Positions 20,788 to 42,818 of a DNA stretch of 43,114 bases are shown piece by piece. This stretch comes from Candidatus Hydrogenedentota bacterium (GTDB taxonomy: Bacteria; Hydrogenedentota; Hydrogenedentia; Hydrogenedentales; JAEUWI01): the NCBI GenBank assembly GCA_016182605.1, contig JACPGE010000039.1:1-43114 (forward strand), written 5' to 3'. Positions within the stretch are counted from its first letter, which is position 1. Each line of letters opens with the position of its first letter. The notes under the pieces were generated by a model that saw only the letters and a list, made by a program, of their open reading frames with translations, did not search any database and was not told the origin of the DNA. The position numbers were made by a program, and so were the translations under genes.

Positions 20788-20818
20788 TAAGGTGTGCGCT
20801 GGATGAAAGGTGTATGGG

Positions 20819-25558: not shown

Positions 25559-26794
25559 ATGCCAAAGTATGCTTATAAAGCGCTGAACAAGGACGGCAAC
25601 GAGATCTTCGGCATCGTGCAGGCCGAGAGCCAGGCGCTCGCCATCAACGACGTGCGCAGCCTGGGCCTCTACCCCACCAAGGTGCGCGAAGCCACCAAGC
25701 GCGACGAACGCCTCGCGCGCAAGGAAAAGAAGGGCCTCGACGAACTCTATTTCGGCGGCGTGAAGACCAAGGAACTCGTGGTCATGACCCGCCAGTTGTC
25801 CACCCTGATCGACGCGGGCCTGCCGCTGCTGCGCAGTCTCAACGTGCTCGTGTCCCAGTTGAAGGCGTGCAAACTGCGCGACATCCTGCGCGAAACCTCC
25901 GACGACATTCAGCAGGGCTCCACCCTCGCGGAAGCCCTTGCAAAGCATCCCAAACAGTTCGACCGGCTCTTTGTGAACATGGTGCGCGCGGGCGAAGTGG
26001 GCGGTATGCTCGAAGTCGTGCTGCAGCGCCTGGCCCACTTCATGGAGCGCCGCGAAGCCCTCAAGCGCAAGGTCAAGGGCGCCATGATCTACCCGATCGC
26101 CGTGCTCGTGATCGCATCGGCCATCGTGGCCTTCCTGCTGGTGAAGGTCGTGCCCGTCTTCGCCGAAATCTTCGAGGAATTCGGCGGCGAACTCCCCGCC
26201 CCCACCAAGCTCCTCATCGCGGCCGGGGACTTCATGCTCTACAAGTGGTGGATTCTGCTGACCTCGATCAACGGCACCATCATCAGTTTCAAAGTCATTA
26301 TGAAATTCGAGGTCGTGCGCAAGGCGTGGGACCGCATCGTCCTCAAAATCCCCCTTTTCGGCGACCTGGTGACCAAGGTGGCGGTGGCGCGTTTTGCCCG
26401 CACCCTGGGCACGCTCATTGCCTCCGGGGTGCCCATTTTGCAGGCCCTCAAGATTACGCGTGAAACCATCAGCAACAGCGTGATGCAGAACGCGGTCGAC
26501 AAGGTGCACGACAGCATCAAGGAAGGCGACACCATTGCGGCCCCCCTGGACGAAACCAAGGTTTTCCCGCCGATGGTGGTAAACATGATTGACGTGGGCG
26601 AAGAGACCGGACAGTTGGACGCCATGCTGGGGAAGGTGGCGGACATTTACGACAACGAAGTGGAGATAGCGGTGGAGGCGATGCTAACCCTCATGGAACC
26701 GGCCATCATTATCGTGCTTGGCGGCATTATCGGTTTCATCGTGGTTTCGTTGTACCTGCCCATCTTCACCCTGGGCGACCAGATCAACAACTAG
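25559..26794 (+). CDS. gspF: GspF/PilC-type inner-membrane platform protein
   Basis: A 411-residue polytopic protein that couples the cytosolic ATPase to (pseudo)pilin assembly. The short N-terminal cytosolic part begins MPKYAYKALNKDG. Two T2SSF domains follow: FTRQLSTL-like helical bundle at about 75-195, and FARTLGTLIASGVPILQAL at about 275-395. Membrane segments lie near 175, 225 and 375-400, the last with the family GEETGQLDAML motif just before it. GAGGAAGG precedes ATG 25559, 14 bases after the second ATPase. Length and motif order are standard. Confidence 0.95.
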   Translation: MPKYAYKALNKDGNEIFGIVQAESQALAINDVRSLGLYPTKVREATKRDERLARKEKKGLDELYFGGVKTKELVVMTRQLSTLIDAGLPLLRSLNVLVSQLKACKLRDILRETSDDIQQGSTLAEALAKHPKQFDRLFVNMVRAGEVGGMLEVVLQRLAHFMERREALKRKVKGAMIYPIAVLVIASAIVAFLLVKVVPVFAEIFEEFGGELPAPTKLLIAAGDFMLYKWWILLTSINGTIISFKVIMKFEVVRKAWDRIVLKIPLFGDLVTKVAVARFARTLGTLIASGVPILQALKITRETISNSVMQNAVDKVHDSIKEGDTIAAPLDETKVFPPMVVNMIDVGEETGQLDAMLGKVADIYDNEVEIAVEAMLTLMEPAIIIVLGGIIGFIVVSLYLPIFTLGDQINN

Positions 26795-26879
26795 AATAAC
26801 AGGCCGGAACCGCGGCAGGGCGCGCCCCGCGTATTGCAGGGCGCCGTCAGGGCGCGTATCCGTACAGGAGAGCATTCTC

Positions 26880-27725
26880 ATGAACAAGCGTGGTTTTACC
26901 CTGGTCGAACTCTTGGTGGTCATGGCCATCATCACCATTCTCGCGGCCATCGCCGTGCCAAACGTCACCAGGTACATTGCGCGCAGCCGCGCGGTGAAGG
27001 CGATCACCGAGATCAAGAACATCGAACTCGCCATCACCAAAATGGTCGGCGATGCGGGCCGCTCCAGCCTGAGCGAACTATTCGATTCCGCCGAGATGGA
27101 GATTCAGTTTGGCGATGACGTTTGCGATACGGCCCAGGACTTTCAATACGCAATGCAGATCTACACCAACTTTACCTATGCCCTGCTCAAACAGGGCCGT
27201 GGCGCTCTGGTGTACAAGGACAGTACGGATGGCGGAACAGGTCTCGAAGGTTCAGTTGTATTGAAGGACGACATCGTGAAGAAATTGGGCACGTCCTATT
27301 TCGAAGATATCGGCGTGGACGCGTGGGGCGAGAACATCTACCAAATCTATCCGGGGCCGTGGCCCAGAGGATCGGCGGCCGCCAATATTCCCTTCCGCAC
27401 CTTCACGGTGTCGGACGCACAATCGAACGTCCCCGGAACGAGGTCTACAACCACCAGTGACGATGTCCTGACGCTGTTCAATATTGAAGATCCCGATACG
27501 GGCGACGTTGAAGCGCGGATCGGGTACCCTGCCCCGCTCGACAAGGTGGCCTACATCTACTCCACCGGCGCCAATCTGGTAAGCGGACAGGCAATTTATT
27601 CCGGGAATGGCTACGACCCGAACAACGTGTCGAACTACCTCCCACAGACAGAAATCCTCATGGGCGGCGGCGACGACCCGAACAATTGGGACGCCGATCA
27701 GTCCTTCATGCGGTTCTATAACTAG
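26880..27725 (+). CDS. gspG: GspG-like major pseudopilin (large)
   Basis: A class III prepilin with leader MNKRG, cleavage before F6 and the conserved E at mature position 5 (FTLVELLVVMAIITILAAIA). This hydrophobic helix is the filament core. GspG order and the AIAVPNVTRYIARSRAVKAITEIKNIE pattern point to the major pseudopilin. At 281 residues it is about twice the usual 140; the extra part is a C-terminal domain rich in Asp, Gly and Asn. AGGAGA (26866-26871) fixes the start; the frame is open upstream but overlaps the platform gene. An 85-base GC-rich gap with short repeats (GCAGGGCGC) separates it from gspF and could give a processing site or internal promoter. Confidence 0.9.
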   Translation: MNKRGFTLVELLVVMAIITILAAIAVPNVTRYIARSRAVKAITEIKNIELAITKMVGDAGRSSLSELFDSAEMEIQFGDDVCDTAQDFQYAMQIYTNFTYALLKQGRGALVYKDSTDGGTGLEGSVVLKDDIVKKLGTSYFEDIGVDAWGENIYQIYPGPWPRGSAAANIPFRTFTVSDAQSNVPGTRSTTTSDDVLTLFNIEDPDTGDVEARIGYPAPLDKVAYIYSTGANLVSGQAIYSGNGYDPNNVSNYLPQTEILMGGGDDPNNWDADQSFMRFYN

Positions 27726-27736
27726 GAGCAGTACGG

Positions 27737-28525
27737 GTGATGGCACGATCCAAGCAGTACGGCCGGCATTCCACCCGGGGTCTCACCCTGGTGGAGTTGC
27801 TTGTGGTCATGGCGGTCGTGAGCCTTCTTGTGAGTCTTTCGGTGGCCGGCGTCGCCAGCTTCACGAGCTTCGCGTCCGACGCGCTGCAGCGCAGCACGCG
27901 CGATGTCTTCACCGTGCTCAAGGCCGCGCGCATCTATGCCTCCACCCACAGCGTGAACACGGCGGTGGTGTACACGCTTGATCGTCTGCCCGCAACCGAC
28001 CCCATGACGGGAAATGCGGTGCGCGAGATCATCGCCGCCGCAGTGATGTACCGGAATGAAAACACGGAAGACGCCGCCTACGGCCTCTACCTCGCCGCAC
28101 CGGGCGAGCAGGGTGAGTTCGAGTTGCTGGAGACGGGCGTGGTAATTCCCCTGTGGGACATCACCGCCGAAAGGAACGGCACGCCATATTACTTCGCAGG
28201 TGGAAGAGATATAGCCGGGCCTTCGTGCCAGGATCTCCAGAACCTGCCATTGTTGGGAATGGCGGCCGTTCAGGCCATTGTGTATGAGGACAACGGGCCT
28301 GTTGCGCGCACCTTTGCGGCGCACGTCTTTCAGCCGTCGGGCCGGATGCAGTTTACCGTGTGCGATGGATCCGCTCCGCCCGAGCGTGTCGAATTTTTTG
28401 TGGCACCCTCGGTGACCGAAGACCTGGGCGTGCGCCTGGTGAATCCCGAGAACACGGCGAGTGAACGTATTTACACCCCCATCCGGCTGTACCGGAGCAC
28501 GGGCCGCGTCGAAATCGCGAGTTAG
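27737..28525 (+). CDS. gspH: GspH-like minor pseudopilin
   Basis: A 262-residue prepilin with a 15-residue leader ending RG and core LTLVELLVVMAVVSLLVSLSV; Glu5 is present. The following stretch (RSTRDVFTVLKAARIYAST) is like GspH, where a globular beta domain follows the helix. The product is about 1.5 times the usual size. Start is GTG 27737 or ATG 27740; AGGAG at 27724-27728 fits either. Position between G-like and I-like genes is the normal operon order. Confidence 0.8.
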   Translation: MMARSKQYGRHSTRGLTLVELLVVMAVVSLLVSLSVAGVASFTSFASDALQRSTRDVFTVLKAARIYASTHSVNTAVVYTLDRLPATDPMTGNAVREIIAAAVMYRNENTEDAAYGLYLAAPGEQGEFELLETGVVIPLWDITAERNGTPYYFAGGRDIAGPSCQDLQNLPLLGMAAVQAIVYEDNGPVARTFAAHVFQPSGRMQFTVCDGSAPPERVEFFVAPSVTEDLGVRLVNPENTASERIYTPIRLYRSTGRVEIAS

Positions 28526-28536
28526 GAGTATTGGGT

Positions 28537-28938
28537 ATGGGCAGGCAGCACAAAGATCGTGCCGGTTTCACGCTGGTCGAGATCGTGGTTGCACTCACCA
28601 TCATCAGCGTGGGTATTGTCGCCGTGATGCGCCTCTTCCCCGAGTCGCTGCGCCAGGCGCGCACCGCGGCAGAGCGCACCACCGTGGCCTTCCTCGCCAA
28701 GACGCAGCTCGGCAAAGTGCGCGCAAGCGGTCTCGGTGGCGGCCTGGGCGCCTGGGCCGCGAACAATTCCTTTCAGAACGTGGCCGCCGCGGGCTCCGCT
28801 TCGGGCGGCTTCTACCAGTCCTACCGCGCGACGACGCAGCGCGTCAGTGGCGACGTGAACCTCTACCGCATCACCTTCTCCGTGCAATTGTTCGACGGCC
28901 GCGAAGAACAATTCGTCACGTATGTGACCGAGCAATGA
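28537..28938 (+). CDS. gspI: GspI-like minor pseudopilin
   Basis: A 133-residue prepilin: leader MGRQHKDRAG, core FTLVEIVVALTIISVGIVAV with Glu5. The IVVALTII-type core and LAKTQLGKVRA segment match GspI, a member of the tip complex with J and K. AGGAG (28524-28528) is eight bases before ATG 28537; a TTG six bases earlier is less likely. Of the five pseudopilins only this one has the normal size. Its stop overlaps the next start by four bases (ATGA at 28935). Confidence 0.85.
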   Translation: MGRQHKDRAGFTLVEIVVALTIISVGIVAVMRLFPESLRQARTAAERTTVAFLAKTQLGKVRASGLGGGLGAWAANNSFQNVAAAGSASGGFYQSYRATTQRVSGDVNLYRITFSVQLFDGREEQFVTYVTEQ

Positions 28939-30674
28939 GCGTGCTCAACCCACATAGCACGCATCAGGGGACTGTACCTTGCCGCGATGCAAGACTTCGC
29001 ACGGACCGTATGATCTTCCACGGCAAGGGACTGTACCTGATCGCAGCCAAGGGGACTGTACCTTGCCGCCAATCTGCACCCCGCACGGGCCGTACGTTCT
29101 TCAACGGCAAGGGACTGTACCCGATCGCGCTGTATCCGAACCCGGACCCGGACCCGTTCACCAACCAGGCGGGCTTCACCCTCGTTGAAATGCTCGTGGC
29201 CATGTCCATCTTCCTCGTGCTGATCAGCGGGCTGCTGGTGCTCTTCAACGGCGTGGTGGAAACCGTGCGCGAAGGCTACCAGACCATGGACACCTTCGAG
29301 CTTGGCCGCGGCGCCATCAACGTCATCGATCGCGATCTCAAGGGCGCCTTCACCTCGCGCGAGCACGGCAACGCCTACCAGTTTTACGGCACGCCCGACG
29401 GCTTCATGTTTGTCGGCACGCTGGAGAGCGGCGAGATCGGCCGCGTGACCTACGTGCTCCACCGCCCCAATCCCGGCGCCTCCCGCGATACCTTCCAGAC
29501 CCTCTACTATGAAGACTATGCCGTCGTGCTGGACACCATCATGCGCCAGGCGCGATCCGCGGTGACGGGCTGCTTCGACACGCCCGCCGAAGCGAAAGCC
29601 GCCCGCGATGCCGCGGCCCAGGCCGCCGCCAACGCCTTCTCCGCCGTCTACCCCAGCACGCCCGACGACGGCTTCCCCGTAACCATGCTCACCTACGACC
29701 TAGTGCGCTACGAAGAGCCCGGCCGCGGCGATCTCGACACCTTCTCCCTGGCAAACGGAGGCGTCCTCCTGCCGGACGGCACCCGCTCCAGTTTGCAGTT
29801 CCCCACCATCGATCCCGCCGATCCCGGCTTGGACGAACTCTTTCTCCTCCCCCCTCCCGAGGAATCCGGCCCCCAGCAAGAGGTCAACAACTTCGTGCTC
29901 TCCGCCATCAACCGGGATCCCTCGACGTTGAACCTCGACATCCGCACCTACATGGAGAACATTGCGGACGACCCCGCGCGCTTCGACTACGGCTCTTTGC
30001 AGATCGTGTCCCCCGCGCTCGTCGAATCGATCGTGGCCACGCGCAAACGCGAATTCTGGATCCGCTGGCTCTCCGGCGAACTCTTTGAAGGCCCCCCCCC
30101 CCGCATCACGCCCTTCTGGACCTTCGACGGCGACGAAAATCGGGACAACGCGGACAAACCCAACGTAGACAAATACATCGTGTCACCTTATGTAATCGCC
30201 AAGGCGGTGCTCCTCGACCTCAGCGGCAATCCCATGTTTATTCCGGGCGGCCCCGCCATGAACATCCTCTTTCAGGATCACTACTTCCGCTACAGTGACG
30301 GGATCAACATCGACGCGCGCTACTTCAACGCGCTCGAAAACCTCGATCAGGGCATCCCCGTGCTCGACGGCAGCGAGGCCGAAATTTATTACAGCACCTT
30401 TCTCTGCCAATCCTCCGAAAACAACCTCTTCTATTGGGACAATTTCCTGATGAACAAACAATATGCGGAGAACCGGGACTCGGACGTGCTCTCCGGTTCG
30501 CCGCTCTTCCCCCGCCTGCCCGCCGTGGTCACCGCCAACCTCACGCTCACCCGGCCGCCCAAGCGGCCCGGTGGCGCCCTCTTCCAGCGGCGCTTCGAGC
30601 AGGGGATAGACGTGCCCTCGGCCATCGGGCGGGATCTCCCGGCGACCCTGGCGCCCAGTCCAGGGCAGGTATAG
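28935..30674 (+). CDS. gspJ: GspJ-like minor pseudopilin with repeat insertion in its leader
   Basis: A 579-residue prepilin, far longer than the usual 200. The export/cleavage signal is AG|FTLVEMLVAMSIFLVLISG with Gly at residue 80, so the leader is 80 residues instead of under 30. Residues about 11-65 are encoded by two tandem 84-base repeat units (28966-29128) that keep the frame because 84 is 28 codons. ATG 28935 overlaps the gspI stop, supporting this start, and no ribosome-bound start exists between the repeat and the core. After the core come LGRGAINVIDRDLKGAF (GspJ-like) and a large unassigned domain. An 11-C tract lies at 30092-30102 (residues about 386-390). Whether prepilin peptidase still handles such a leader is unknown. 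Confidence 0.82.
   Translation: MSVLNPHSTHQGTVPCRDARLRTDRMIFHGKGLYLIAAKGTVPCRQSAPRTGRTFFNGKGLYPIALYPNPDPDPFTNQAGFTLVEMLVAMSIFLVLISGLLVLFNGVVETVREGYQTMDTFELGRGAINVIDRDLKGAFTSREHGNAYQFYGTPDGFMFVGTLESGEIGRVTYVLHRPNPGASRDTFQTLYYEDYAVVLDTIMRQARSAVTGCFDTPAEAKAARDAAAQAAANAFSAVYPSTPDDGFPVTMLTYDLVRYEEPGRGDLDTFSLANGGVLLPDGTRSSLQFPTIDPADPGLDELFLLPPPEESGPQQEVNNFVLSAINRDPSTLNLDIRTYMENIADDPARFDYGSLQIVSPALVESIVATRKREFWIRWLSGELFEGPPPRITPFWTFDGDENRDNADKPNVDKYIVSPYVIAKAVLLDLSGNPMFIPGGPAMNILFQDHYFRYSDGINIDARYFNALENLDQGIPVLDGSEAEIYYSTFLCQSSENNLFYWDNFLMNKQYAENRDSDVLSGSPLFPRLPAVVTANLTLTRPPKRPGGALFQRRFEQGIDVPSAIGRDLPATLAPSPGQV
28966..29128. repeat. Two tandem REP-like units (84-base period) in the gspJ-like leader
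   Basis: Unit 1 (28966-29044) and unit 2 (29050-29128) each start AGGGGACTGTACCTTGCCGC and end ACGGCAAGGGACTGTACC plus GATCGC. Within each unit CCTTGCCG and CGGCAAGG are inverted, so each can fold into a long hairpin. The inner parts differ between units, so the duplication is not recent or has been retained as two insertions. GGGACTGTACC occurs four times. Confidence 0.88.
30092..30102. repeat. 11-C homopolymer within the gspJ-like gene
   Basis: Eleven consecutive C (GAAGG followed by C x 11) encode Gly-Pro-Pro-Pro-Arg in the middle of the GspJ-like protein. It is the longest homopolymer I see in the window. Tracts of this length are prone to slippage in replication, and in sequencing too. 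Confidence 0.9.
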
Positions 30675-30794
30675 CGCATTTCCGCGGCGGGCCGGGCTTG
30701 CGCCCCGCGCCGCGTTTAACAGGCGGCAGGCAGAGGCCGCACAGGGCAGTACATGGGGAAGCTGCCGAGGCAGATGAGCAAGAGGTACACGTGC

Positions 30795-33700
30795 ATGACG
30801 CAAACTGGTAACGGGCCGGGAGGCACCGCGCATAACCGCGGCGCCGCCCTGATCATGGCGGTCGCCATACTGGCGGTGCTCCTCGCCATCGCCCTGGCCT
30901 TTTTTTCGTCCACCAAAGTCGAGATGAACATCGCCACCAACACGGTGAACAAGGTCCGCGTCGATCTCCTCTCCGACGCCACCCTCGCGCTCGCCATGGC
31001 CACACTCAACCAGGATCTCCTCCGCCATCCGAACGCCACCTCCACCGACCACCCCTGGCGCAGCCTTTACAACGGCGCCTGGGCCGCGGGCAAGCCCTGG
31101 GCCATGCGCCGCAACGGCGCCACCCCCATCTCCATGAGCCAGGGCGGCGTCCCCGAGGTCAATCTGCTCAAACCCAATTTCCCCGCCTACGCGAACAGCA
31201 ACTACGTCTATCCCCTGTGGGTCGTCTTTGCCGATGGCCACCGCGAAGTGCTCTACCGCGGCGAACGCTCCCGCGACTGGCTCTACTACCCCCGCGTCGA
31301 AGCCTTCCGCGGCACCGATTTAGACTTGCCCAATGGCAGCCCCGCCGTGCTCTACGATGCCAACGCCATTCTCATCGATTCCGCGGACCCGCCCGTCGCC
31401 GTCACGCCCGTCTACCGCTACAACCCCGAGCTTCCCTACGACGCCACGCCGCAAACCCTCAACGGCATCACCGATGTGCCCCCCTCCTACCTGCCCTTTG
31501 TCACCTCCAGTTACTACGGCACGGTCGGCGTCGGTTCCCAGGGATTCACCCCCATGGTCGATGGCACACTCAACGCCCTCTTCCCCGTGCCAGACAAGGA
31601 GACGGACCCTACTAAAGGCGGCGACGGCGGCAGCCAGTACCCCCGCGAACAGGTGGACACCTTCGCCGATGTGGATCTCGACAACGACGGCCTGAAAGAC
31701 GCCGTCTGGCTGCCCCTGCCCCAAGACCGCTTCTACCCGGACGACGGCCTCGACAACGATCTCGACGGCATGATCGACGAAACCCAGGACAACGGCGTCA
31801 ACGACGACCACATTCCCGGCGTCTACGATAACGAGCCGGAATCGATTTGGAACAGTACCGATCAAGTAACCCGTGCGCAGGCCATCGATTTCGACATCGA
31901 CGAGGCCATCGAAGCCGGGGTCTTCGCGTATTACGGCGGCGACGACGGCCTCGACAACGACGGCAACGGGTTGGTTGACGAGGGCGAGGATCTGGTGGGC
32001 GAAGACGGCTATAACGAAACCGGGGAGATCTTCTTCCTCACCGCGCCCCTGCCCGGCGAACGGATTCCCGTCGATCTGAACAACGACGGCATCTCGCCAG
32101 ACACCGTGCCGATCTGCGACGCGACGTGCGATTCCATCGTGATGGAGCCCCTCTACGTCATTCTTCCCGACACGATCACCGTGCGCACGGTTATTGGCGA
32201 CATTGCGCTCACCGCCGCCAATGTGGATGTTCTCGACAACGACCACAACATGCTCGTGAACGATTTCTTTGCCTACGCCTACATCGGGCCCAACACCCAA
32301 TGGGAAACGCCGCCCAAAAAAATCATCGGCTTTGGCGATGACGGCACGGTCATTTATCCAGATGTCAACGTCCAAAACTCCGCCGTGGCGCTCACCGATC
32401 CCGGTTACTACGACCGCTGGCTGCTTCCCAACAACTGGGCCGCGGACGACATCACCGATCCCATCTACTCCCTGCCGCGCGCCCTCGCCTACCACGAAAT
32501 CAAGGTCGATTCCGCGCTGAACAACGCCATTCGCTTTGAGCCCCCCGTGGCGCAGATCCTGCGCAATGGCGCCGTTGACGATAAGCCGATCTACGACTGG
32601 CTCACGCCACACATCCGCATCACCCACTCCGGCGAGCCCATGTGCGATATCGTCGGCCGCGCCGCCGTCTACATCACCGACGAGGCCAGCCGCGTCAACG
32701 TCAACGTCGCGGGCGGACACGTGTATAACCCCGGCCCGCCGCTCGCCAATAGCTCCGTAAATGCCCCAAATATCATGCGCGCACTGGGTGACGGTGCCTC
32801 CCCCCACGAATACGAAACCCGTGTGCTGCCCGAGGGGGGTATTGCGCGATCGGGAACACTCTGGAGCGTGTTGACGGGAAATCCCAAAGGCGGTGCCGAC
32901 GAAGTGGGAATATACAGTTATGACGTCCAACTGCCGGGCTATAGCCGCGCGGATGACAACGGCAACGCCTGGATCGCCACGATCAACGGTCTTGACGACG
33001 ATGGCGACGGCCTCATCGACGAAGGCGCTTTTCTGCCCAGACTCAGCGTTCAGACGCGGAGAATCGTCGAAGGTATTGACGCCTACAGTAGTCTTTCCGA
33101 CGAACGGAAACAGGCCGTTTTCGATGAATTGAAGAGCACCCGCTTCGCCGATTACGCGAATGCCCTCGGCTATTTTGAAGGTGTCGACGAGCCCGGCGAG
33201 ATGCAGCGCTTCCAGGGACTGCGCAACTTTCTCGCCGAACGTGACACCATCGACAACGACGCCGATGCCCGAGATAGTTTTGGGTTCGTCGAATCCGTTG
33301 TTGACGAATTCGGCGAACTGGGCGATGCCGTCTTCCAAAAAGAAGATCAGGTGCCGTTGAGGACACCGTCAATTGCCGATGGTGTTTACGGTGTCATGGC
33401 GAACGACCTTACCGCCTTCAGCACCGATCGCAACGTGAACATGGTGCCCGCGCGCGAGGGCCTGCGCGTCATCAACAAGCTCGACCCCAACTTCGCCACG
33501 GCACAGCAACTGGCCGCCAGCCTCATCATCAACGGCCGCTTCGAGCCGGTCACCACCGCCACCAAAGCGCCCCCCATCGATCTATACGCCGGCGGCGTCC
33601 CCATGCCCTCGGAGATCCCCTACATCTTCGATCCAGACGGCACCACCACCCGCGGCTTTGCCCTGGGCCTGCGCCAGGGAGACATCCACCTCAGCGCCCC

Positions 33701-36700
33701 CGTCCCCACGGGCACACCGTTGAATAATTTCAATCTCGCCACCAACTACCTCGATCAAATTGTCACCGGCGGCGGTTTCCTCCACGTGGACGGCGATGGC
33801 GATCCCCTTACGGACGATCTCATTCCCACCACCGTGCCGCCGTATCACGAGCTGCCCGCCGATGCCCAGATCCGCGCCATGCAAATGGCCACCGACCTCG
33901 TGGACAACCGAGACCGTGACCACGTCCGCTCCGTCCTGCGCACCCCGCGCCTCGATTCCATCACGGGAGATGATGCCGGTGTTGTCAACTGGCCCAGGGC
34001 CGGCGCCACCTTCGACCCAGTTTCCGGACTGCCCAACAACAATGCGCTCAACCAGCGCGAGACGTACGCCCCAGAAGAAATCCTGCCCCTGGAAGACATT
34101 CAAGACCACCTCAACAACACCCTCGATATCCAGGATCTCCAGACGGACGTTACGGACGATTGGTGGAAGGGTTTTGTTACGGTAGACAGTTCCATTGATC
34201 CCGATGTGCGGGAACAGCGCCGCTTTTCCTACACCACCACCGGCAGCGAAGCCATCAAGATCAACGAACTCATGGTACGCCCCGTGCGCCGCGTAGAGAC
34301 GGAAATGATCCGGCACAACCTCGAACCACTATCCGATATGGATCCCATGTTTCCTTTCCTTGCGAACACGTCTCCTTTTGAAGCATCTCCCGAGTTTATT
34401 GGGCTAGTCAACCGATTCCCCTTTCCAGACTTCAACATGGACCGGCGTGAACACAGAACAAATCTCGCCGAGCCGTTCGACTGGCTACTGGGCGATCCTG
34501 CCGGAATTGCCTCTCTGGGCGAAGGTGTGGGGCTGCGCACCACCGAGGCCCTCGCAGTCAATGGCGAGCCCAACATTCTTGTCTTTACCTTCAGCGATGA
34601 AGACATCTACGAATCGGGCATCAACGGCCTGCCATCCGGCCGGTACTATCTCATGGTCAAGACCGATGCAGAGCCGGGAGAATTGCAGTACAACATTCGC
34701 TATAGAGACCTTTCCGAGGGTGCCGGGCCCGCCATTCAGAACAACGCCTTTGTGCCCACCAATTGGCGAATAGTCCCCGGTGAACATTTCTCGTCCCAGA
34801 TTTCCGGCGCGCCCACGGGATGGGTCTTCCTTGATGCGACTCCAGCCGACATACTCGATGGAACGGTAAACGCGCCGGCGCCGGACAACTTTGCAGAGTT
34901 TCCGTTTCGCTATCAGCGCTCGCTAAGTAACGGGGCCGATTCAATCTGCCTCGTGATACAAAGCGATCACGATCCGGACGATGGCGAGATCAATGGCTTC
35001 TACGTCACGATCTCCGCGGGCCCAACGATTCTCGCGGGTTCGTTGACCAGTATTGTGTTGACCGATACAACCGATACCCTCACGGTGACCTCGCTAACAT
35101 TTCCCCAATTGCTGGAACTGGATTTCACGGGGGAAGACGTCATTCATATGTATATTCCAAACACGGGTACGGTGTTCTCTCCAACGGAGTTCTCCAATGG
35201 CTCGATCACCATAGAGGCCGTACTCAACACGGTGACAACGGGCCCTCAGGTGGTGCAATCGGTCTTTGGGGGAGATTGTGGGGAACTGGCGCCCACGCAC
35301 ACAGTTAGCATTCCAGAATTTCCCGCGGACACGTCGGGGACTCCGCGCCGCATGGTATTGGATGTAGCCATTGCGCCCGTGGACAACAATCCAGATCCCT
35401 TCGATGGTTTCACCATCGATGCTTTTGATTTTACCCAAGAGCCCGACCACGAGTACGTGGAACTGCTCAACACTTCCGGCGAAGCGGTGGATGTCAGCGG
35501 TTGGGAACTGGAGGTGGGCATCCCCGATCCTCATAACATCCAGGCGGACCCGAACAGGGGCCTGTGGAGTATTCCGGATGGGACCACAGTGGCTCCCGGT
35601 GGAATGCTGCTGCTGGCCTTCGACAAGTTTGATAGCTATTTTCAGTTGAATGGCATTTCCGATTTTGACGATACAAGCGCAAACGGCAGTGACAACAGCC
35701 TCATTAACCGCAATGGCATGGGCATGGCCGCAGGAGGTTATGCCTTTCCCGGTGATGGTTACATACCCTTTATTCAGGAAGTTACGGTGCCACCCATCGC
35801 CGACGTATCGGCCTCAGCCGCAGCCGATGTTCGGGATGTTTCCGGCAGTGTGTTCTATCGTTTCGATGACCTAGAAACCACGGGCACGAACGAATTCGTG
35901 GATTATGTGGATCGGGACGGCGACGGGCTCACTTCGGCTTATCTGGTGGAAATCGACGCTACCCTGAGAGACGGCACTTCGACCCGGACAGCCCGGGAGA
36001 TCGACGCCCTAACCGATCGCTCCATCCAGGATAACGACGTGCGATCCACGCAGAAGGGCACATCCGCGAGCAATGCCCCTTGGGATCGCATCGTGGAATT
36101 GGTCAACGAAGAACTGCGCGGCTCTGGATCCCTGATGACCGATCTGGCCAATTCCGGCGGCGGCGTCGATGCCTTGGCGGCCTTTCTCCTGCGCGGTGGC
36201 GCATTGCCCAACTATCCAGAGCACGATGGCATTGACAACGACGGCGACGGCGGCTACATCGATCGAATCGGAAACTATGTTCCGGGCGTGCTCGAAAAAG
36301 ATATGGTCGACAATGATTTGGATGGGATTATTGATGAGCGGGGGATGGGGTACTCTTCAAATACGCTCGACGATGATTCGGACGGGGTTACGGACGAGCT
36401 TGGCGAAGATTTGTTGAATGATGGTCTTGATACCAACGGTGACGGCTTGATTGATGAACCCGGAGATGAGTCCGATCCTCTATTGAGCGAAGGGGTGGAT
36501 GAAGGACGGGGATTCAGCGCAGAAGCAGCAGCGATTGGAGTTCCATGGCGCCGCTGGGGAGCAGGGACTTTCGAAGCGGGGGTACTGCCGATTTCCTTCT
36601 TGAATGACCGTGCCGTGTACACAGACATATTCTTTTCAGACCTGACCGATCCACGCCTTGTTGACCCCGATGGCACTGTCGCGACACCGGGAGTAGGAAT

Positions 36701-39524
36701 CGACGCCAGTCTGACTTCGGTTCTGAATATCGACGATCTCCTCGTACGGGCGGGTTATCTACCGGACGATTTACTTGGAATTGCCACGGGAACCCCGTAT
36801 GCCAACGTAGATGCCCCGTACCTCGGCAGCGATGCGGATCCGCCGGACTGGAAGGCCTTTACAGAGCGCCGCTGGTATCCAGGCGACAATGTCATTGTCA
36901 CGCTATATCAAGGCCTTGCGGAGAACGACCAGGTGGCGGATCGCGTGACCTACCGCGAATACGACGTGATCAACCGCACCGTCGACGACATGATATCTCG
37001 AGACCTTGATGGAGACGGCACAGACGAATTTCCCGCACTTCACCTGGACTACCCAACTTGGTGGACGCCGAACCACATGGCCCTGGATTTCTACCGTGCG
37101 CTGGAGCGCAAGTCGCCACACTATAACGGCGACCGCTTCGGCACGACGAACCGCTGGGAACCCACCGACGGCAACTACGATGACTGGTCGGAAAGCATTG
37201 CACTGGTGGAATTAACCCGCTTTCCCGTGAAAGACCCCGCAAACGTGCTTCCGCTGGCGTTCCCCTCCGATGTGGTGACCGACAGCCTTGTGGCGCGTTT
37301 TCTGGCCGACGGCGTTACCAATGCGCATTTGAAGAATCTGCAATTACTTGGCCACAGCCTGTGGGGATCGCCCTTGCGCATGAATGTCGCCACCCGCATG
37401 AGCGAAAATCCCATGGATTTGGCCCGCGTGCTGGATGCAGCGGATTCCGACAATAATGATCCCATAGACCAGTTCAAACAACTCGATCATTATGTGGATG
37501 CGTATCATCGTCGCATCAACGCCGAGAGCCGCCACTATGAGAACCGCGGATGGAACCAGAATAAGGTGGCCCAGCGGGATCGGAATTTTGAGAGTCCAGG
37601 CAATCTGACAAGTGTGCCCGGCTTGATTTATGCCCACCAGATGGTCAACACGACGCGCGTACCCGGACTGACGGCGGATTATCTCCTGGGCATGAACGGG
37701 CTCAATACATCGATACTGTTCACTGACACCGAGGGCTTGAGCCGGGGCGCATACCAGGATATGGCCCTTCGCGGTGCGACACTCGGAATGGACGATACGG
37801 ATGGTGAGATGGCCGATGTTATGGCGAAGCTGTCGGACTCCCTGGCAGTGAATTCGCTCGTGCTCACCGTGGGCCAGGCGGAGTTCAAACCCGTCCGGCC
37901 ACGGCTCTCCGACGCGGAACTGGAAGCCATCCTGGATTGGAATAATTTCAGGGGTCAGGCGCCAGGCGCGTGGGCGCCGGTTTTCCTGACGGATATCGGC
38001 GGCGGCGCCACCACTCCGGGCCGTCTGCCCTATTACCCGGCCTATTTCGACGGCGCGACCACGATAGCGCAGGTGCCGGTCTATGGCCTGTTCAATCCCG
38101 ACTTCATCCTGAACGCGGGCATTGCCTTCGGCAACACCTTCCTGCCGGCCCCGCTTAACATTGCCGACTTGCAGACGCGTTGGCCCATGGAGCAGCGCGT
38201 GGCCATGTATGTGAGTGACAATCCCTCCGGCATCTCGAATTCACCCGACACGCCCGAAGCGCTCTTCATCTGGGATGGCGCCGATGGTATCGAAAACGGG
38301 GAATACATGGTCTACATCGCCACGTACACGCGAGATTACGTGGAGCAGTTGGGGCATATGGCCGATCTATATCCAGGCATGGTGTCACAGACGCTTCAAG
38401 ATCCCAGGCCCCCGAGTACGGATACAGTGACGGTGAATGCGGCAGCGCCATTGCAATTCGTTACCGATTTCACGATCAACGTGCTTTCAGCACTGAACCC
38501 GGGGGCCGAGGGCCGTTTGCCGCAGTTGGCCCTTGACGTAATCACTGATCCGGCCAAAGCCCGGGGTTTCGCTCCGCAGGGAAACCTGGAAGCCCCCGGT
38601 CTGACGCATCCAGACGACTGGAATCCCGACGTGAGGTACCAGCCCGATTCTCATGGCATCATTTCCTACGGTTCGGGCACGGGCGATGAATGGCGGCCGC
38701 AGATGGTGCGCGTGACCGACAATTTCCTGGCGTTGCGCGTGCGCAACGTGGGCGATGCTGGACAGGTTGCGTCGATTACCCACGTCATCCTCGCGCCACG
38801 CAAACGCACCCCCGGTCGCATCAATGTGAATACGGCGGAGAGCCGCATTGCCGCCAATGGAGATCTTTACAGTGTTCTCTTCGGTGTGCCCGGTGTGGTG
38901 GATGCGCTTCGAACAGTCCGGCCTTTGCCGATCAGTGCATTGGATGATGCCACACCGATTGCCGGGCCCATTTCACCTTCAGAACCCCTTGGGCTTCCCG
39001 GAGATTCGACGGGATCGGCTTGGTTGGCGCCGGAGGCGCTTGCGCCATCTGCAGATGTGCCAGCCCGATTTGGCAGCATTGACCCGTCCGATCCGATCGC
39101 AACGGGAAACTATACGCAGGCTTTTGCGCGGCTGAGCGCGTTGATCATGGCGAACCGCACGGAACACCCGGACGGCCGCTACTACGACAGCCCCGGCAGC
39201 CTGATACTGCGGGACGAGCGGCCCTTTGGCGGTGACATCACGATCGGCACGTACCCGCTGAGCAATGAGTCGGATCCCGAACGGCGCTTTGACGAAGTCA
39301 CGTCGCGCTTTGGCCGCATGGCAAACACGATTACGACGCGATCCGATGTCTTCCGCATCCGCATGCTGGTGCAGGCGGGCTACGCCATCGACACGAATGG
39401 CGACGGACGCTACAACTACCGCAGCAACGATGAATTTGTTTCCACCGCCACGGTGAACTCCGAGGTGGTCTACGAACGGCGCACCCCGTCGGACAAGTCC
39501 GATGAGGCCACCGCAAACGACTAA
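30795..39524 (+). CDS. gspK: Giant GspK-like minor pseudopilin
   Basis: One uninterrupted frame of 2,909 residues; GspK is usually about 320. The N-terminus RGAALIMAVAILAVLLAIAL is prepilin-like but lacks Glu5, as GspK does. Two GspK-type landmarks remain: ITDEASRVNVNVAGG (about 630) and GRINVNTAESRIAANGDLYS (about 2,675). Between them is a very long Asp/Gly-rich part with about ten DxDxDG-type motifs (examples near 31669, 31740, 31942, 32990, 36225-36459, 37000, 39392) and a lamin-tail-like domain near 1,554 (YVELLNTSGEAVDVSGWELE). Start: ATG 30795 has AGAGG nine bases upstream; ATG 30774 and 30753 are alternatives. Last of the G-H-I-J-K series. Inferred role: calcium-stabilised tip subunit, possibly also an adhesin. 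Confidence 0.8.
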   Translation: MTQTGNGPGGTAHNRGAALIMAVAILAVLLAIALAFFSSTKVEMNIATNTVNKVRVDLLSDATLALAMATLNQDLLRHPNATSTDHPWRSLYNGAWAAGKPWAMRRNGATPISMSQGGVPEVNLLKPNFPAYANSNYVYPLWVVFADGHREVLYRGERSRDWLYYPRVEAFRGTDLDLPNGSPAVLYDANAILIDSADPPVAVTPVYRYNPELPYDATPQTLNGITDVPPSYLPFVTSSYYGTVGVGSQGFTPMVDGTLNALFPVPDKETDPTKGGDGGSQYPREQVDTFADVDLDNDGLKDAVWLPLPQDRFYPDDGLDNDLDGMIDETQDNGVNDDHIPGVYDNEPESIWNSTDQVTRAQAIDFDIDEAIEAGVFAYYGGDDGLDNDGNGLVDEGEDLVGEDGYNETGEIFFLTAPLPGERIPVDLNNDGISPDTVPICDATCDSIVMEPLYVILPDTITVRTVIGDIALTAANVDVLDNDHNMLVNDFFAYAYIGPNTQWETPPKKIIGFGDDGTVIYPDVNVQNSAVALTDPGYYDRWLLPNNWAADDITDPIYSLPRALAYHEIKVDSALNNAIRFEPPVAQILRNGAVDDKPIYDWLTPHIRITHSGEPMCDIVGRAAVYITDEASRVNVNVAGGHVYNPGPPLANSSVNAPNIMRALGDGASPHEYETRVLPEGGIARSGTLWSVLTGNPKGGADEVGIYSYDVQLPGYSRADDNGNAWIATINGLDDDGDGLIDEGAFLPRLSVQTRRIVEGIDAYSSLSDERKQAVFDELKSTRFADYANALGYFEGVDEPGEMQRFQGLRNFLAERDTIDNDADARDSFGFVESVVDEFGELGDAVFQKEDQVPLRTPSIADGVYGVMANDLTAFSTDRNVNMVPAREGLRVINKLDPNFATAQQLAASLIINGRFEPVTTATKAPPIDLYAGGVPMPSEIPYIFDPDGTTTRGFALGLRQGDIHLSAPVPTGTPLNNFNLATNYLDQIVTGGGFLHVDGDGDPLTDDLIPTTVPPYHELPADAQIRAMQMATDLVDNRDRDHVRSVLRTPRLDSITGDDAGVVNWPRAGATFDPVSGLPNNNALNQRETYAPEEILPLEDIQDHLNNTLDIQDLQTDVTDDWWKGFVTVDSSIDPDVREQRRFSYTTTGSEAIKINELMVRPVRRVETEMIRHNLEPLSDMDPMFPFLANTSPFEASPEFIGLVNRFPFPDFNMDRREHRTNLAEPFDWLLGDPAGIASLGEGVGLRTTEALAVNGEPNILVFTFSDEDIYESGINGLPSGRYYLMVKTDAEPGELQYNIRYRDLSEGAGPAIQNNAFVPTNWRIVPGEHFSSQISGAPTGWVFLDATPADILDGTVNAPAPDNFAEFPFRYQRSLSNGADSICLVIQSDHDPDDGEINGFYVTISAGPTILAGSLTSIVLTDTTDTLTVTSLTFPQLLELDFTGEDVIHMYIPNTGTVFSPTEFSNGSITIEAVLNTVTTGPQVVQSVFGGDCGELAPTHTVSIPEFPADTSGTPRRMVLDVAIAPVDNNPDPFDGFTIDAFDFTQEPDHEYVELLNTSGEAVDVSGWELEVGIPDPHNIQADPNRGLWSIPDGTTVAPGGMLLLAFDKFDSYFQLNGISDFDDTSANGSDNSLINRNGMGMAAGGYAFPGDGYIPFIQEVTVPPIADVSASAAADVRDVSGSVFYRFDDLETTGTNEFVDYVDRDGDGLTSAYLVEIDATLRDGTSTRTAREIDALTDRSIQDNDVRSTQKGTSASNAPWDRIVELVNEELRGSGSLMTDLANSGGGVDALAAFLLRGGALPNYPEHDGIDNDGDGGYIDRIGNYVPGVLEKDMVDNDLDGIIDERGMGYSSNTLDDDSDGVTDELGEDLLNDGLDTNGDGLIDEPGDESDPLLSEGVDEGRGFSAEAAAIGVPWRRWGAGTFEAGVLPISFLNDRAVYTDIFFSDLTDPRLVDPDGTVATPGVGIDASLTSVLNIDDLLVRAGYLPDDLLGIATGTPYANVDAPYLGSDADPPDWKAFTERRWYPGDNVIVTLYQGLAENDQVADRVTYREYDVINRTVDDMISRDLDGDGTDEFPALHLDYPTWWTPNHMALDFYRALERKSPHYNGDRFGTTNRWEPTDGNYDDWSESIALVELTRFPVKDPANVLPLAFPSDVVTDSLVARFLADGVTNAHLKNLQLLGHSLWGSPLRMNVATRMSENPMDLARVLDAADSDNNDPIDQFKQLDHYVDAYHRRINAESRHYENRGWNQNKVAQRDRNFESPGNLTSVPGLIYAHQMVNTTRVPGLTADYLLGMNGLNTSILFTDTEGLSRGAYQDMALRGATLGMDDTDGEMADVMAKLSDSLAVNSLVLTVGQAEFKPVRPRLSDAELEAILDWNNFRGQAPGAWAPVFLTDIGGGATTPGRLPYYPAYFDGATTIAQVPVYGLFNPDFILNAGIAFGNTFLPAPLNIADLQTRWPMEQRVAMYVSDNPSGISNSPDTPEALFIWDGADGIENGEYMVYIATYTRDYVEQLGHMADLYPGMVSQTLQDPRPPSTDTVTVNAAAPLQFVTDFTINVLSALNPGAEGRLPQLALDVITDPAKARGFAPQGNLEAPGLTHPDDWNPDVRYQPDSHGIISYGSGTGDEWRPQMVRVTDNFLALRVRNVGDAGQVASITHVILAPRKRTPGRINVNTAESRIAANGDLYSVLFGVPGVVDALRTVRPLPISALDDATPIAGPISPSEPLGLPGDSTGSAWLAPEALAPSADVPARFGSIDPSDPIATGNYTQAFARLSALIMANRTEHPDGRYYDSPGSLILRDERPFGGDITIGTYPLSNESDPERRFDEVTSRFGRMANTITTRSDVFRIRMLVQAGYAIDTNGDGRYNYRSNDEFVSTATVNSEVVYERRTPSDKSDEATAND

Positions 39525-39587: not shown

Positions 39588-42500
39588 ATGAGACACCTGC
39601 GCAACTTGGGGGCACGGTGGATGCTAAGCTGCATGGCGGCGGGGCTGATCTGTGGCGCGGCCGGCGCCCAGAGCATTGTGGTAAACACGGTGGCCGACTT
39701 GATCACGGAGATCACTACGGCGACCCCTGGCACCGCGAAAACCATCCTCCTCGATGAATCGGGTTCCCCCTACAATCTCACAGCGGCGCTCATGATCGGA
39801 AACGGGGTGAATATCACCCTCACAGGGCTGAATAGCGGCGCGGCCGGCCTGCAGCATCCCGAACGCATCGAGATCACCTCCTCCGGCATCGCCTTTGACG
39901 TGATGCAGGGCGGCAAACTGAGCCTCACCAACCTCACGGTCACCGGCGCATCCACCGCCATCGCGGTCACGAGCGCGATCACGGGCACGCCTCCGGCGAC
40001 AACCTTGACCTTGCAGCGCTGCTACATCAACGAGAATTCGGCGGTGGGCGTGTTGCTCACGGGCCTATCGACCAGCGCGATCATCCAGAACACGGCCATC
40101 ACCGCCAACGACAGTCATGGCGTCCACGTGGACAACATGGCGCGGGTCACCCTGGTGCAGACGACCCTGAAGGACAACAAGGGCGACGGCGTTTTTTTTG
40201 AGGATGCCAACGACACGGCGGCGAGTCACGTCGTAGCGTGCCTCCTCCACAACAATGTCAACGGCATCCGCTTCGTTGATGGCATGGTGACGCTGCGGGC
40301 GAACCTCATCTATGCCAGCAGCGCCATGGACATCAACGGCACGCTCGTCGATCCGGACCCCGTCACCGTGCCCGCGGTGAACATCTTCGATCCCGGCGTT
40401 TGGACGGGCAAGATCAATATCATCAATCAGTCCGATATCCAGACCGCGATCGACAGTTCCGATTTTCCCTCGGGCGTGACGCTCAAGGACGACTTTGAGA
40501 ACCAGCCACGCGCCAGCACCAATGTGAAGGCGGGGGCCGACGAACCCGTGATCACCGCGGCCACCGGCCAGTGGATTGACGTGTTCCGCCCCGATTACAT
40601 GAATGCGAACGGCGGCTACATCGAAATACTTACCTCGGGCATCACGCTGTGGGATGTGGGCAACAACCGGGGCGCGGTGGTCTATATCGTTCCCGAATCC
40701 ATCACTGACCTAGGCCCCTTCACCTTGGCCAATGCCGCCAATTCGGCCCTCGCCGTGGAGATCACGGCGGGGATGCTCGTGGGCGGAAATCCCAACTACG
40801 CTGCATTCCTGTTCACGCCGCCGGGCACCTTCGTCGATCTGGGCACGGCCACCGACGTGCTGCTCGATGGTCAGGCCACGCTCTTCCTGCAGGATCCCAA
40901 CGCTCCCGCCAACCTCTACGGGGAAACCCTCACCCAGGCCACCGGCCATATCAGCACGGGCGCGGAACTTCGCCGCCGCTTCATCATCGACACGACCCCG
41001 CCCAACATCCAGTTTGTCGATCCGGTTTCGGGAGAAGCCTACCGGCCCTATGATTACGTGTTGTCGTCCAACGATTCGAGTGCGGCGGTTGCCGCGTTCG
41101 CGCCTTACCCGTCAAATTGGACTCCCGCCTTTCGCCCCATTCCTTCCAACAGCGGCAGCCTCGATCCGGCCAACCGTAGCGCGGGCGATCCGGCCATCTT
41201 CCTGAATTCGGGCAACGACTATTCGCTTGATTTAACGGTGCCGCAGATGACTCTTACACTTCAGTTTCTCTTCGAAGATCCCGCGCCCGATGGAGTACCC
41301 GATGGAGTAGAGGTGGTGACTGCAGGCTTTGTGGATGACGCCAATGATTTTCCGCTGCCCGAGGATCGAGAGTATGTTGCTGGCGGCGGATCCACACCCA
41401 ATCTGACGCTCGACCCGCGTCCCAATAAAGCAGACCCACTTGAAGGGCTTGGCGCTGTGTTCACATTGAACGATGTGCCCCCCAGCGCAAACGAAGCGTT
41501 CAGAAGGGTGGGCGTGCATTTTGGCACTGGGTTCAGCACATCAATCCCCCCCGCGCCATTTTTGAGCAGCGAATTCGAGTTCGAATGCGCCTATATTGTA
41601 CCTGGCGAAGAGTGGATGTTCAGCGGCACGCTTGATGTGTCGGACCTGGCCGGCAATACCCTTTCCCTGCGCGGCTTGCCCAACCCTTATCGGGTCTGGT
41701 GGCTGCCCGATGAAATCCCTGCTCTCGATGGACCATTCGATTTGAAGACGAAGTATTCGGCGGTGCCCAAAGCGCCATTTGAGCAATTGAAGGGCGCTCT
41801 CGACTGGGGACTGGCCCGAGTGGGAAACCCTTCCTACACCGCGCCCGGCGATGCCGCACCTTCAAAGGCCATCGCACAGTTCGCCCTCTACAGGGCAATC
41901 GATCCGAATGACGTCTACGATACGACCTGGGTGCCCTTATTTCCCGCGTATCTTTTTGCAGCTTTGGGCGAGTTCAGTGACTGGACCATCGACCAACCCA
42001 TCACTCTGAGTTCCTTCGTTGCGCCTGGAGTCAGACTGATTCAGGTTATGGACGAACTTCTCGCCCCCGGAGATCGGGTGACCGCCGTGATTCGCGTCGC
42101 TGATGAAGCAGGCAATGTATCCGACGTGACCTTAGGATCGCCGCTTGCTTCAGCCGATATTTTCAGTTCGGTGGATGCTGAATCGGAATTTTACAGCTGG
42201 ACACACGGCGTCGACACCCAGTTGGATACGGCGGTCCGAGCAGACTTCTGGCACAACAGCCCCAATGTGGAGAATGGCGATGGCGACCGCTCGCCAGTGG
42301 ATGGAGTTGAGCCCTACTTCAGTGCCAGTAACCGTATCCCCCAGGCCAGCAGTGCCGACTGCGCCCGGGTCGAAGCCCGTTTCACCGTGCAATTCAAGCT
42401 TCCTGAGGCCGCCACTCTGTCGCCCTATGCCATTTGGAACTTGTACGAAGATGGGCGCCGGGTGGCGGGTGGTACGATCCGGGAAGACAATCTGGGCACA

Positions 42501-42818
42501 CATACCGCCACGCTGGTAATTCCCGGCGATCTGCTGAATCTTCCAAGTGACGGGCACGTCACATTGGATTTCCTGGATAATTTCCTGAACCTTCCTGAAC
42601 CGGTATGCGGCGAAGAGCGGGACCGTCTAGGGGACTATGGCTACACGCGTACGGACCAGGAGAAAGCCAATACTCCCCGAGATGTGGAATACCTCTTCAC
42701 GGTAGGCACTGTGTTGGGCCTTGAGGTGGACATTCCGCCCGCCTCCACGCGCTTCGTGGTCACCACGGGGCGGAAGCTGAAGGAAGATCAGCCGATCAAG
42801 ACCTTCAAACGCGAATAG
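39588..42818 (+). CDS. Secreted right-handed beta-helix protein
   Basis: A 1,076-residue protein with a signal peptide ending near AGAQS. Residues about 30-300 form repeated short strands typical of pectate-lyase-like right-handed beta-helices (IAVTSAITG, VTLVQTTLKDNKGDGVFF, VNGIRFVDG). After about 440 come Ig-like or bacterial surface beta-sandwich segments (RRRFIIDTTPPNIQFVDP, VADEAGNVSDVTL). No catalytic residues of a lyase were recognised. AGGAGG (39575-39580) fixes the start, 63 bases after the giant pseudopilin, so it probably belongs to the same transcript. It could be a cargo or surface partner of the secretion/pilus machine. T8 at 40192-40199 lies in the coding sequence. Confidence 0.82.
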   Translation: MRHLRNLGARWMLSCMAAGLICGAAGAQSIVVNTVADLITEITTATPGTAKTILLDESGSPYNLTAALMIGNGVNITLTGLNSGAAGLQHPERIEITSSGIAFDVMQGGKLSLTNLTVTGASTAIAVTSAITGTPPATTLTLQRCYINENSAVGVLLTGLSTSAIIQNTAITANDSHGVHVDNMARVTLVQTTLKDNKGDGVFFEDANDTAASHVVACLLHNNVNGIRFVDGMVTLRANLIYASSAMDINGTLVDPDPVTVPAVNIFDPGVWTGKINIINQSDIQTAIDSSDFPSGVTLKDDFENQPRASTNVKAGADEPVITAATGQWIDVFRPDYMNANGGYIEILTSGITLWDVGNNRGAVVYIVPESITDLGPFTLANAANSALAVEITAGMLVGGNPNYAAFLFTPPGTFVDLGTATDVLLDGQATLFLQDPNAPANLYGETLTQATGHISTGAELRRRFIIDTTPPNIQFVDPVSGEAYRPYDYVLSSNDSSAAVAAFAPYPSNWTPAFRPIPSNSGSLDPANRSAGDPAIFLNSGNDYSLDLTVPQMTLTLQFLFEDPAPDGVPDGVEVVTAGFVDDANDFPLPEDREYVAGGGSTPNLTLDPRPNKADPLEGLGAVFTLNDVPPSANEAFRRVGVHFGTGFSTSIPPAPFLSSEFEFECAYIVPGEEWMFSGTLDVSDLAGNTLSLRGLPNPYRVWWLPDEIPALDGPFDLKTKYSAVPKAPFEQLKGALDWGLARVGNPSYTAPGDAAPSKAIAQFALYRAIDPNDVYDTTWVPLFPAYLFAALGEFSDWTIDQPITLSSFVAPGVRLIQVMDELLAPGDRVTAVIRVADEAGNVSDVTLGSPLASADIFSSVDAESEFYSWTHGVDTQLDTAVRADFWHNSPNVENGDGDRSPVDGVEPYFSASNRIPQASSADCARVEARFTVQFKLPEAATLSPYAIWNLYEDGRRVAGGTIREDNLGTHTATLVIPGDLLNLPSDGHVTLDFLDNFLNLPEPVCGEERDRLGDYGYTRTDQEKANTPRDVEYLFTVGTVLGLEVDIPPASTRFVVTTGRKLKEDQPIKTFKRE

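Follow-up and report, generated by a model that had tools for sequence, protein, structure and literature searches.

A giant multi-domain GspK-like minor pilin in a pilus-type operon of Candidatus Hydrogenedentota

The stretch of DNA analysed here (the window; 43,114 nucleotides, contig C96 of a genome of 6.76 Mb whose named close relatives are Candidatus Hydrogenedentota) carries a row of genes for the assembly of a type IV filament (Table 1). Two PilB-type extension ATPases, for both of which PilB was the best match at a score under the equivalog cut-off, flank a PilT-type retraction ATPase, and a platform protein and a series of prepilins follow. Both extension ATPases carry MshE-type c-di-GMP-binding domains, hinting at control of pilus extension by c-di-GMP. 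A first-pass annotation made from the sequence had described the last prepilin gene as the K-like end of a canonical G-H-I-J-K set, and the four prepilin genes upstream of it indeed matched G-, H-, I- and J-type profiles. The J-type protein is well above the size of an ordinary GspJ; the corresponding ORFs of relatives specify 449 to 625 amino acids. The gene order PilB-PilT-PilB-PilC-G-H-I-J-K was found in nearly all relatives whose contig spans the region.

Table 1 Genes and protein regions of the pilus-type locus, with positions in the window
Feature	Position	Strand	Evidence or remark
PilB-type extension ATPase 1	20810..22672	+	profile match
PilT-type retraction ATPase	22687..23787	+	TIGR01420, 461.9 bits, over cut-off
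PilB-type extension ATPase 2	23799..25544	+	profile match
PilC/GspF platform protein	25559..26794	+	profile match
Major pilin-like (G)	26880..27725	+	profile match
H-type minor pilin	27737..28525	+	profile match
I/PilV-type minor pilin	28531..28938	+	TIGR02523, E 1.9e-10
J-type minor pilin, enlarged	29172..30674	+	about 500 aa from GFTLVE site; start approximate
Giant K-type minor pilin	30753..39524	+	2,923 codons; alternative start 30795; orthologues in relatives
Prepilin core and long alpha-1 helix, no Glu5	30837..31022	+	residues 29-90; NCBIfam T2SS_GspK and alignment
First insertion	31023..32642	+	residues 91-630; Asp-rich, DND/DxDxDG loops
K alpha-domain 1 region	32643..33542	+	residues 631-930; collinear with Omnitrophota K-type protein, hhalign P 99.9
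Lamin-tail domain	34245..35822	+	residues 1165-1690, split by insertion at about 1190-1550; PF00932
DxDxDG calcium-type loop cluster	36225..36452	+	residues 1825-1900; motif count, conservation in homologues
Giant-specific conserved block	36810..37442	+	residues 2020-2230; homologue alignment
CBM-like jelly-roll	37839..38801	+	residues 2363-2683; AF2 model and structural match
Predicted K alpha-domain 2 with RINVNTA motif, and closing strands	38805..39497	+	residues 2685-2915; hhalign
Secreted right-handed beta-helix protein, candidate partner	39588..42818	+	PF13229, E 8.8e-13; C-terminal EDQPIKTFKRE

The giant gene is a single frame without interruption, in which an internal ATG at the alternative start would give a product of 2,909 residues. 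With its 2,923 codons it is about nine times the size of the ordinary GspK of 319 amino acids encoded by the same genome, as the first-pass annotation had estimated. The prepilin core GAALIMAVAILAVLL occupies residues 30-44 and has no Glu at position 5, a DEASRVNVNVAGG landmark lies at approximately residues 643-655, and a PGRINVNTA landmark ends near residue 2695. All three were kept across the aligned homologues. The homologue alignment revealed conserved sequence over the full length of the protein, with variable linkers in between.

Intact relatives of this gene are common. When 60 relatives were searched with the giant protein, 53 gave a match; 20 loci were extracted whole and had ORFs of 2,226-3,067 amino acids, some of them clipped by contig ends. 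Complete giant ORFs of 2,072-3,067 amino acids were present in at least 15 named MAGs, many of which are also among the 60 relatives, which means that the two counts are not independent. A C-terminal segment of 220 amino acids was matched in 43 of 68 genomes in a sample of the phylum (30 of the 38 of good quality). Homologues of similar length in the same phylum, which the earlier reading of the locus had called for, thus exist and occupy a conserved operon position. They also dispose of the possibility that several genes were fused into one frame by assembly or sequencing, an explanation with a practically negligible probability since complete ORFs occur at the same position in many independent MAGs and the operon order is kept; nothing was found in its favour.

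The giant protein is by homology a K-type (GspK-like) minor pilin. As in GspK members, its prepilin N-terminus continues into a hydrophobic helix without Glu5. The NCBIfam T2SS_GspK model matched residues 29-103 with an E value of 6e-8, below its cut-off (NF037980, 32.6 bits versus a cut-off of 130), and the same N-terminal match was obtained in 17 of 18 aligned homologues (best E 2.2e-10). PF03934 (cut-off 24.2) gave no match on the giant protein itself, which falls below every curated GspK cut-off. The check with PF03934 that had been proposed works only by way of a bridge: a scan of contigs with the homologue alignment as query named the phylum and revealed Omnitrophota proteins of approximately 1,035 amino acids, one of which scores over the PF03934 cut-off (24.4 versus 24.2). 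A contig scan with the giant protein as a single-sequence query gave no match. The Omnitrophota proteins have an N-terminal GspK match with an E value of 1e-16 and a lamin-tail domain over cut-off. Large K-type proteins are not confined to this gene but occur in the whole order and, in the version of approximately 1,035 residues, in Omnitrophota. A PF03934 match elsewhere in the genome (contig C110, L003) was rejected as a pilin; it belongs to an HhH/S1 RNA-binding-type protein.

Profile-profile comparison ties the two groups together. With hhalign, residues 632 to about 1640 of the giant protein aligned with residues of approximately 105-624 of the Omnitrophota protein (P 99.9), and residues 2612-2915 aligned with the Omnitrophota K C-terminus (P 99.3, E 1.8e-20). 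The K-like similarity that had been postulated for both ends of the protein was in this way recovered at the C-terminus as well as in the N-terminal GspK match. The region of K alpha-domain 1 contains the motifs DEASRVNVN, PGY..ADDN, EGVDEP and STDRN. Searches of PDB sequences with either the giant or the Omnitrophota profile gave no meaningful match. An AlphaFold2 model of one Omnitrophota protein, a different member from the one that passes PF03934, reached a pLDDT of 85.6 and a pTM of 0.83. Its four best PDB matches were XcpX/GspK chains (9a1f_T, 6utu_C, 5vtm_X and 3ci0_K), with Z scores of 16.4-17.0 over 220-255 residues and an rmsd of 3.4-4.2 Å. Because the aligned ranges extend to residue 1036 and, for 9a1f_T, begin at residue 7, the GspK fold is whole in this predicted structure, with the extra domains inserted within it. 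From the collinear motifs we infer the same build, a whole GspK fold with internal inserts, for the giant protein.

The first-pass annotation had seen one huge Asp-rich domain in the insertion. The protein is Asp-rich overall (10.5 % Asp, net charge -251), but the Asp residues are dispersed over many loops and domains, and the inserted part consists of several domains. The first insertion, between the helix and DEASRVNVN, measures about 540 residues versus about 45 matching residues in the Omnitrophota relatives. The lamin-tail domain, the sole Pfam match on the giant protein (E 1.4e-5, below cut-off), was recognized in 15 of the 18 aligned members (best E 5.9e-13). It begins with INELMVRP near residue 1170 and resumes with EPDHEYVEL near residue 1564; its INE-strand is collinear with the Omnitrophota protein in hhalign, and the insert splitting it contains a GRYYL motif in both groups. 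The conserved block of residues 2020-2230, with the motifs ERRWYPGDNV, DFYRALERKSP, GDRFG and TDGNYDDW, has no recognised relative. DxDxDG motifs number 11 in the whole protein versus 0.43 expected from shuffled sequence. Since GspK has two canonical calcium sites (PMC6211770) and PilY1 is calcium-dependent (PMC8833165), the motif counts make it plausible that these loops bind calcium.

Structure prediction in windows, also suggested at first, was of partial use. The AlphaFold2 model of the C-terminal 1,200 residues (1724-2923) was mostly of low confidence (mean pLDDT 50), and GspK chains were absent among the matches listed for it, which is uninformative at that confidence. The jelly-roll was its sole extended confident and usable part. 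Nearest to CBM86 (Z 8.3, borderline), it lies directly before RINVNTA, the same site as that of a CBM6-like jelly-roll in the Omnitrophota model (residues 793-928, Z 11.3). The latter model also has beta-sandwiches and a lamin-tail domain (TMt of 0.60 with lamin A/C) as inserts. Matches of the jelly-rolls to lectin-type domains of Cry toxins, to Eph receptors and to neuropilin were set aside as common beta-sandwich similarity, not kinship.

Directly downstream of the giant gene lies that of a right-handed beta-helix protein of 1,076 amino acids. A beta-helix gene adjoins the giant gene in most relatives, and its products are of 992-2,373 amino acids and otherwise divergent. A core Q[PRF][IVF][KR] was located at most 16 residues from the C-terminus in 12 of the 13 complete copies, the exception (L045) having the variant EQGVKEFTRE. 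Among control ORFs at the same loci, the tail core was present in 15 of 730, mostly the beta-helix proteins themselves. The encoded tail pattern matched once in the whole window genome, in the beta-helix gene, and the idea of QPIK as a genome-wide C-terminal sorting signal was rejected for that reason. That the giant pilin has its own dedicated partner or substrate in the beta-helix protein is no more than a reasonable guess.

In relatives, the operon continues past K with the beta-helix gene, a PEGA/sulfatase-modifying-type lipoprotein, PilM, two small proteins and a secretin. The lipoprotein (positions 473-1846 of L144, and relatives) has weak matches to models of the T9SS protein GldK and of EgtB type. 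As orthologues of the PilM/secretin part are found at the start of another contig of the window genome (C25, L144), the operon is probably cut by the end of the window contig. PilM of C25 scored over the TIGR01175 cut-off and the secretin over that of PF00263; the secretins of relatives had their top score on GspD. Both the relatives' proteins and the C25 copies also match the models of Amuc_1101 (PilM) and Amuc_1098 (secretin) from the Akkermansia-type pilus cluster (Amuc_1098-1102), below the equivalog cut-offs. A type IVa pilus set of PilT, PilB, PilC, PilM and secretin is complete when C25 is included. The genome contains a second PilM/PilO/secretin set on contig C85 (15115-20673, L145), beside which no PilB, PilC or pilin genes were seen; the assignment of a basal machine to the giant-K operon rests on synteny in relatives. 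Three T2SS-like clusters elsewhere in the genome have K proteins of ordinary size, namely 319 (C32), 426 (C45) and 369 amino acids (C2). A type II secretion machine has no PilT, which is encoded in this operon, as PilM is in its continuation in relatives. Because of PilT and PilM, and of the ordinary K proteins in separate T2SS-like clusters, the machine resembles a retractable type IVa pilus more than a type II secretion system.

In this superfamily, a complex of minor pilins initiates the filament, stays at the tip and is capped by a subunit without Glu5 (PMC10191384). As the giant protein likewise lacks Glu5, it can be read as a K-type subunit that caps the H-I-J-K complex in a type IVa-like, retractable pilus, with a head that would be a calcium-dependent adhesin for surfaces or glycans in the role that PilY1 has elsewhere. 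We give this reading a probability of roughly 0.6. It builds on the K-type homology, the multi-domain architecture, the operon context and the order-wide conservation, to which processing, tip location, the binding of calcium and of a ligand and the role of the partner are added by inference. Prepilin peptidase would cleave the leader, the long N-terminal helix would let the protein join the I-J-H complex at the very top, and growth of the pilus would carry it outward. The location at the filament tip, which the first-pass annotation had also assumed, follows by analogy with known capping subunits. Insertions between the secondary-structure elements of the GspK-type fold (helix, strands, two alpha-subdomains and closing strands) would have enlarged it to a head some 2,800 residues long, which includes the split lamin-tail domain, the CBM-like jelly-roll and the numerous loops of calcium type. 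PilT would retract the pilus once the head has bound, and the beta-helix protein may dock on the head.

The adhesive, calcium-dependent tip head is the most economical reading, and its main rival is secretion of the beta-helix protein: a short, piston-like pseudopilus in which the giant K recognises a dedicated substrate, most likely this protein, and expels it in the manner of a type II system. It would then be the cargo receptor which, besides a tip adhesin, the first-pass annotation had considered. The apparently retained GspK-type alpha-subdomains, the secreted neighbour encoded immediately downstream in most relatives, the near-constant tail signature that is unique in the window genome and the preference of the secretins for GspD all agree with such a secretion cap. 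PilT and PilM are, however, parts of type IV pili, the ordinary K proteins of the genome are encoded in T2SS-like clusters of their own, and lamin-tail and CBM-like domains are of no obvious use to a piston cap; on balance we consider secretion unlikely. Equally tentative is a proposal that joins the two ideas, in which the Hydrogenedentota K cap would itself be the pilus tip organelle (with a smaller form in Omnitrophota), a pilin that replaces PilY1 through CBM-like and lamin-tail domains nested in the GspK fold and that presents a dedicated beta-helix effector docked by its conserved QPIK-type tail.

More remote readings leave the filament or the adhesin aside. A giant surface protein, shed or anchored in the membrane, that only uses a prepilin-like leader would agree with the multi-domain, surface-like bulk, and the tip location is putative; but the protein stands in the K position of the operon in nearly every relative examined, conservation extends to both K regions and the relative of about 1,035 residues has the whole GspK fold, which makes this reading improbable. 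Still less probable is a head that binds DNA at the pilus tip for uptake. Retraction by PilT would fit that function, and the Thermus modular minor pilin ComZ, in which the pilin sheet accommodates a large inserted domain, is a precedent (PMC8179133); the strongly acidic character of the head speaks against DNA binding.

Compared with GspK/XcpX (PF03934, PF21687, NF037980; PDB 3CI0, 5VTM, 6UTU), the giant protein which we favour as an adhesive tip cap shares the N-terminal helix without Glu5, the regions of the DE..(K/R)xNxN and RINVNTA motifs, the predicted closing strands and the position as last gene of the H-I-J-K set. It differs in its size, its scores under curated cut-offs, its multi-domain inserts and its PilT/PilM pilus operon; GspK is the nearest structural match of the Omnitrophota relative. 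Pilins of modular build that serve in adhesion provide an established precedent (Raynaud et al. 2021, PMC8179133), for instance S. sanguinis PilB with a vWA domain and PilC with a lectin domain. Like these, the giant protein combines a pilin module with non-pilus domains (lamin-tail, CBM-like jelly-roll) that are likely to serve adhesion, but they lie inside the K-type fold and are not C-terminal additions, and the protein is far larger than the most extreme multi-domain case in that survey, a protein of 860 amino acids with 12 repeats. The tip protein PilY1/PilC (PF05567) offers a parallel in that a large calcium-dependent head would be expected on minor pilins at the pilus tip, whereas PilY1 is a non-pilin with a C-terminal beta-propeller. 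PF05567 did not match the window protein in a Pfam search; it gave no match in the 60 relatives, yet none in control genomes either, and an absence of PilY1 is not claimed.

The kinds of protein concerned are known already: modular pilins, GspK and tip heads. As far as the searched literature shows, the size, the insertion inside the K-type fold, the distribution over two phyla and the dedicated neighbour are new; the search yielded nothing on Verru_Chthon, on Hydrogenedentota pili or on Omnitrophota tip proteins. The tip may resemble a large grappling head with several purposes, and one pilin might do the work that is normally divided between the HIJK complex and PilY1. At the front of the filament, some 2,800 head residues would have to be threaded to the cell surface, which raises the question of how they pass the secretin or fold outside it. 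The series from GspK (about 320 residues) via Omnitrophota (about 1,000) to Hydrogenedentota (about 3,000) would be a route to study the growth of pilins by internal insertion. The protein may also offer a first functional approach to the way in which Hydrogenedentota, a phylum without a pilus study in the searched literature, attach to surfaces.

Two minor observations concern other lineages. A MAG labelled Rhodothermaeota (L084, VFKU01000230.1) contains a giant K C-terminus of the Hydrogenedentota type and is possibly misbinned or mislabelled. The four minor pilins H, I, J and K (positions 26718-30674 of the window, and K) have weak matches to the Verru_Chthon cassette proteins D, B, C and A, respectively, suggesting that this cassette, too, encodes a minor-pilin set of H-I-J-K type. 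Cassette protein A (TIGR02600, 1,296 positions) is likewise large, but the giant K reached 26.7 bits versus a cut-off of 332.3 and matched with its N-terminus alone (model positions 1-58); a match to protein A was obtained in 15 of the 18 aligned homologues.
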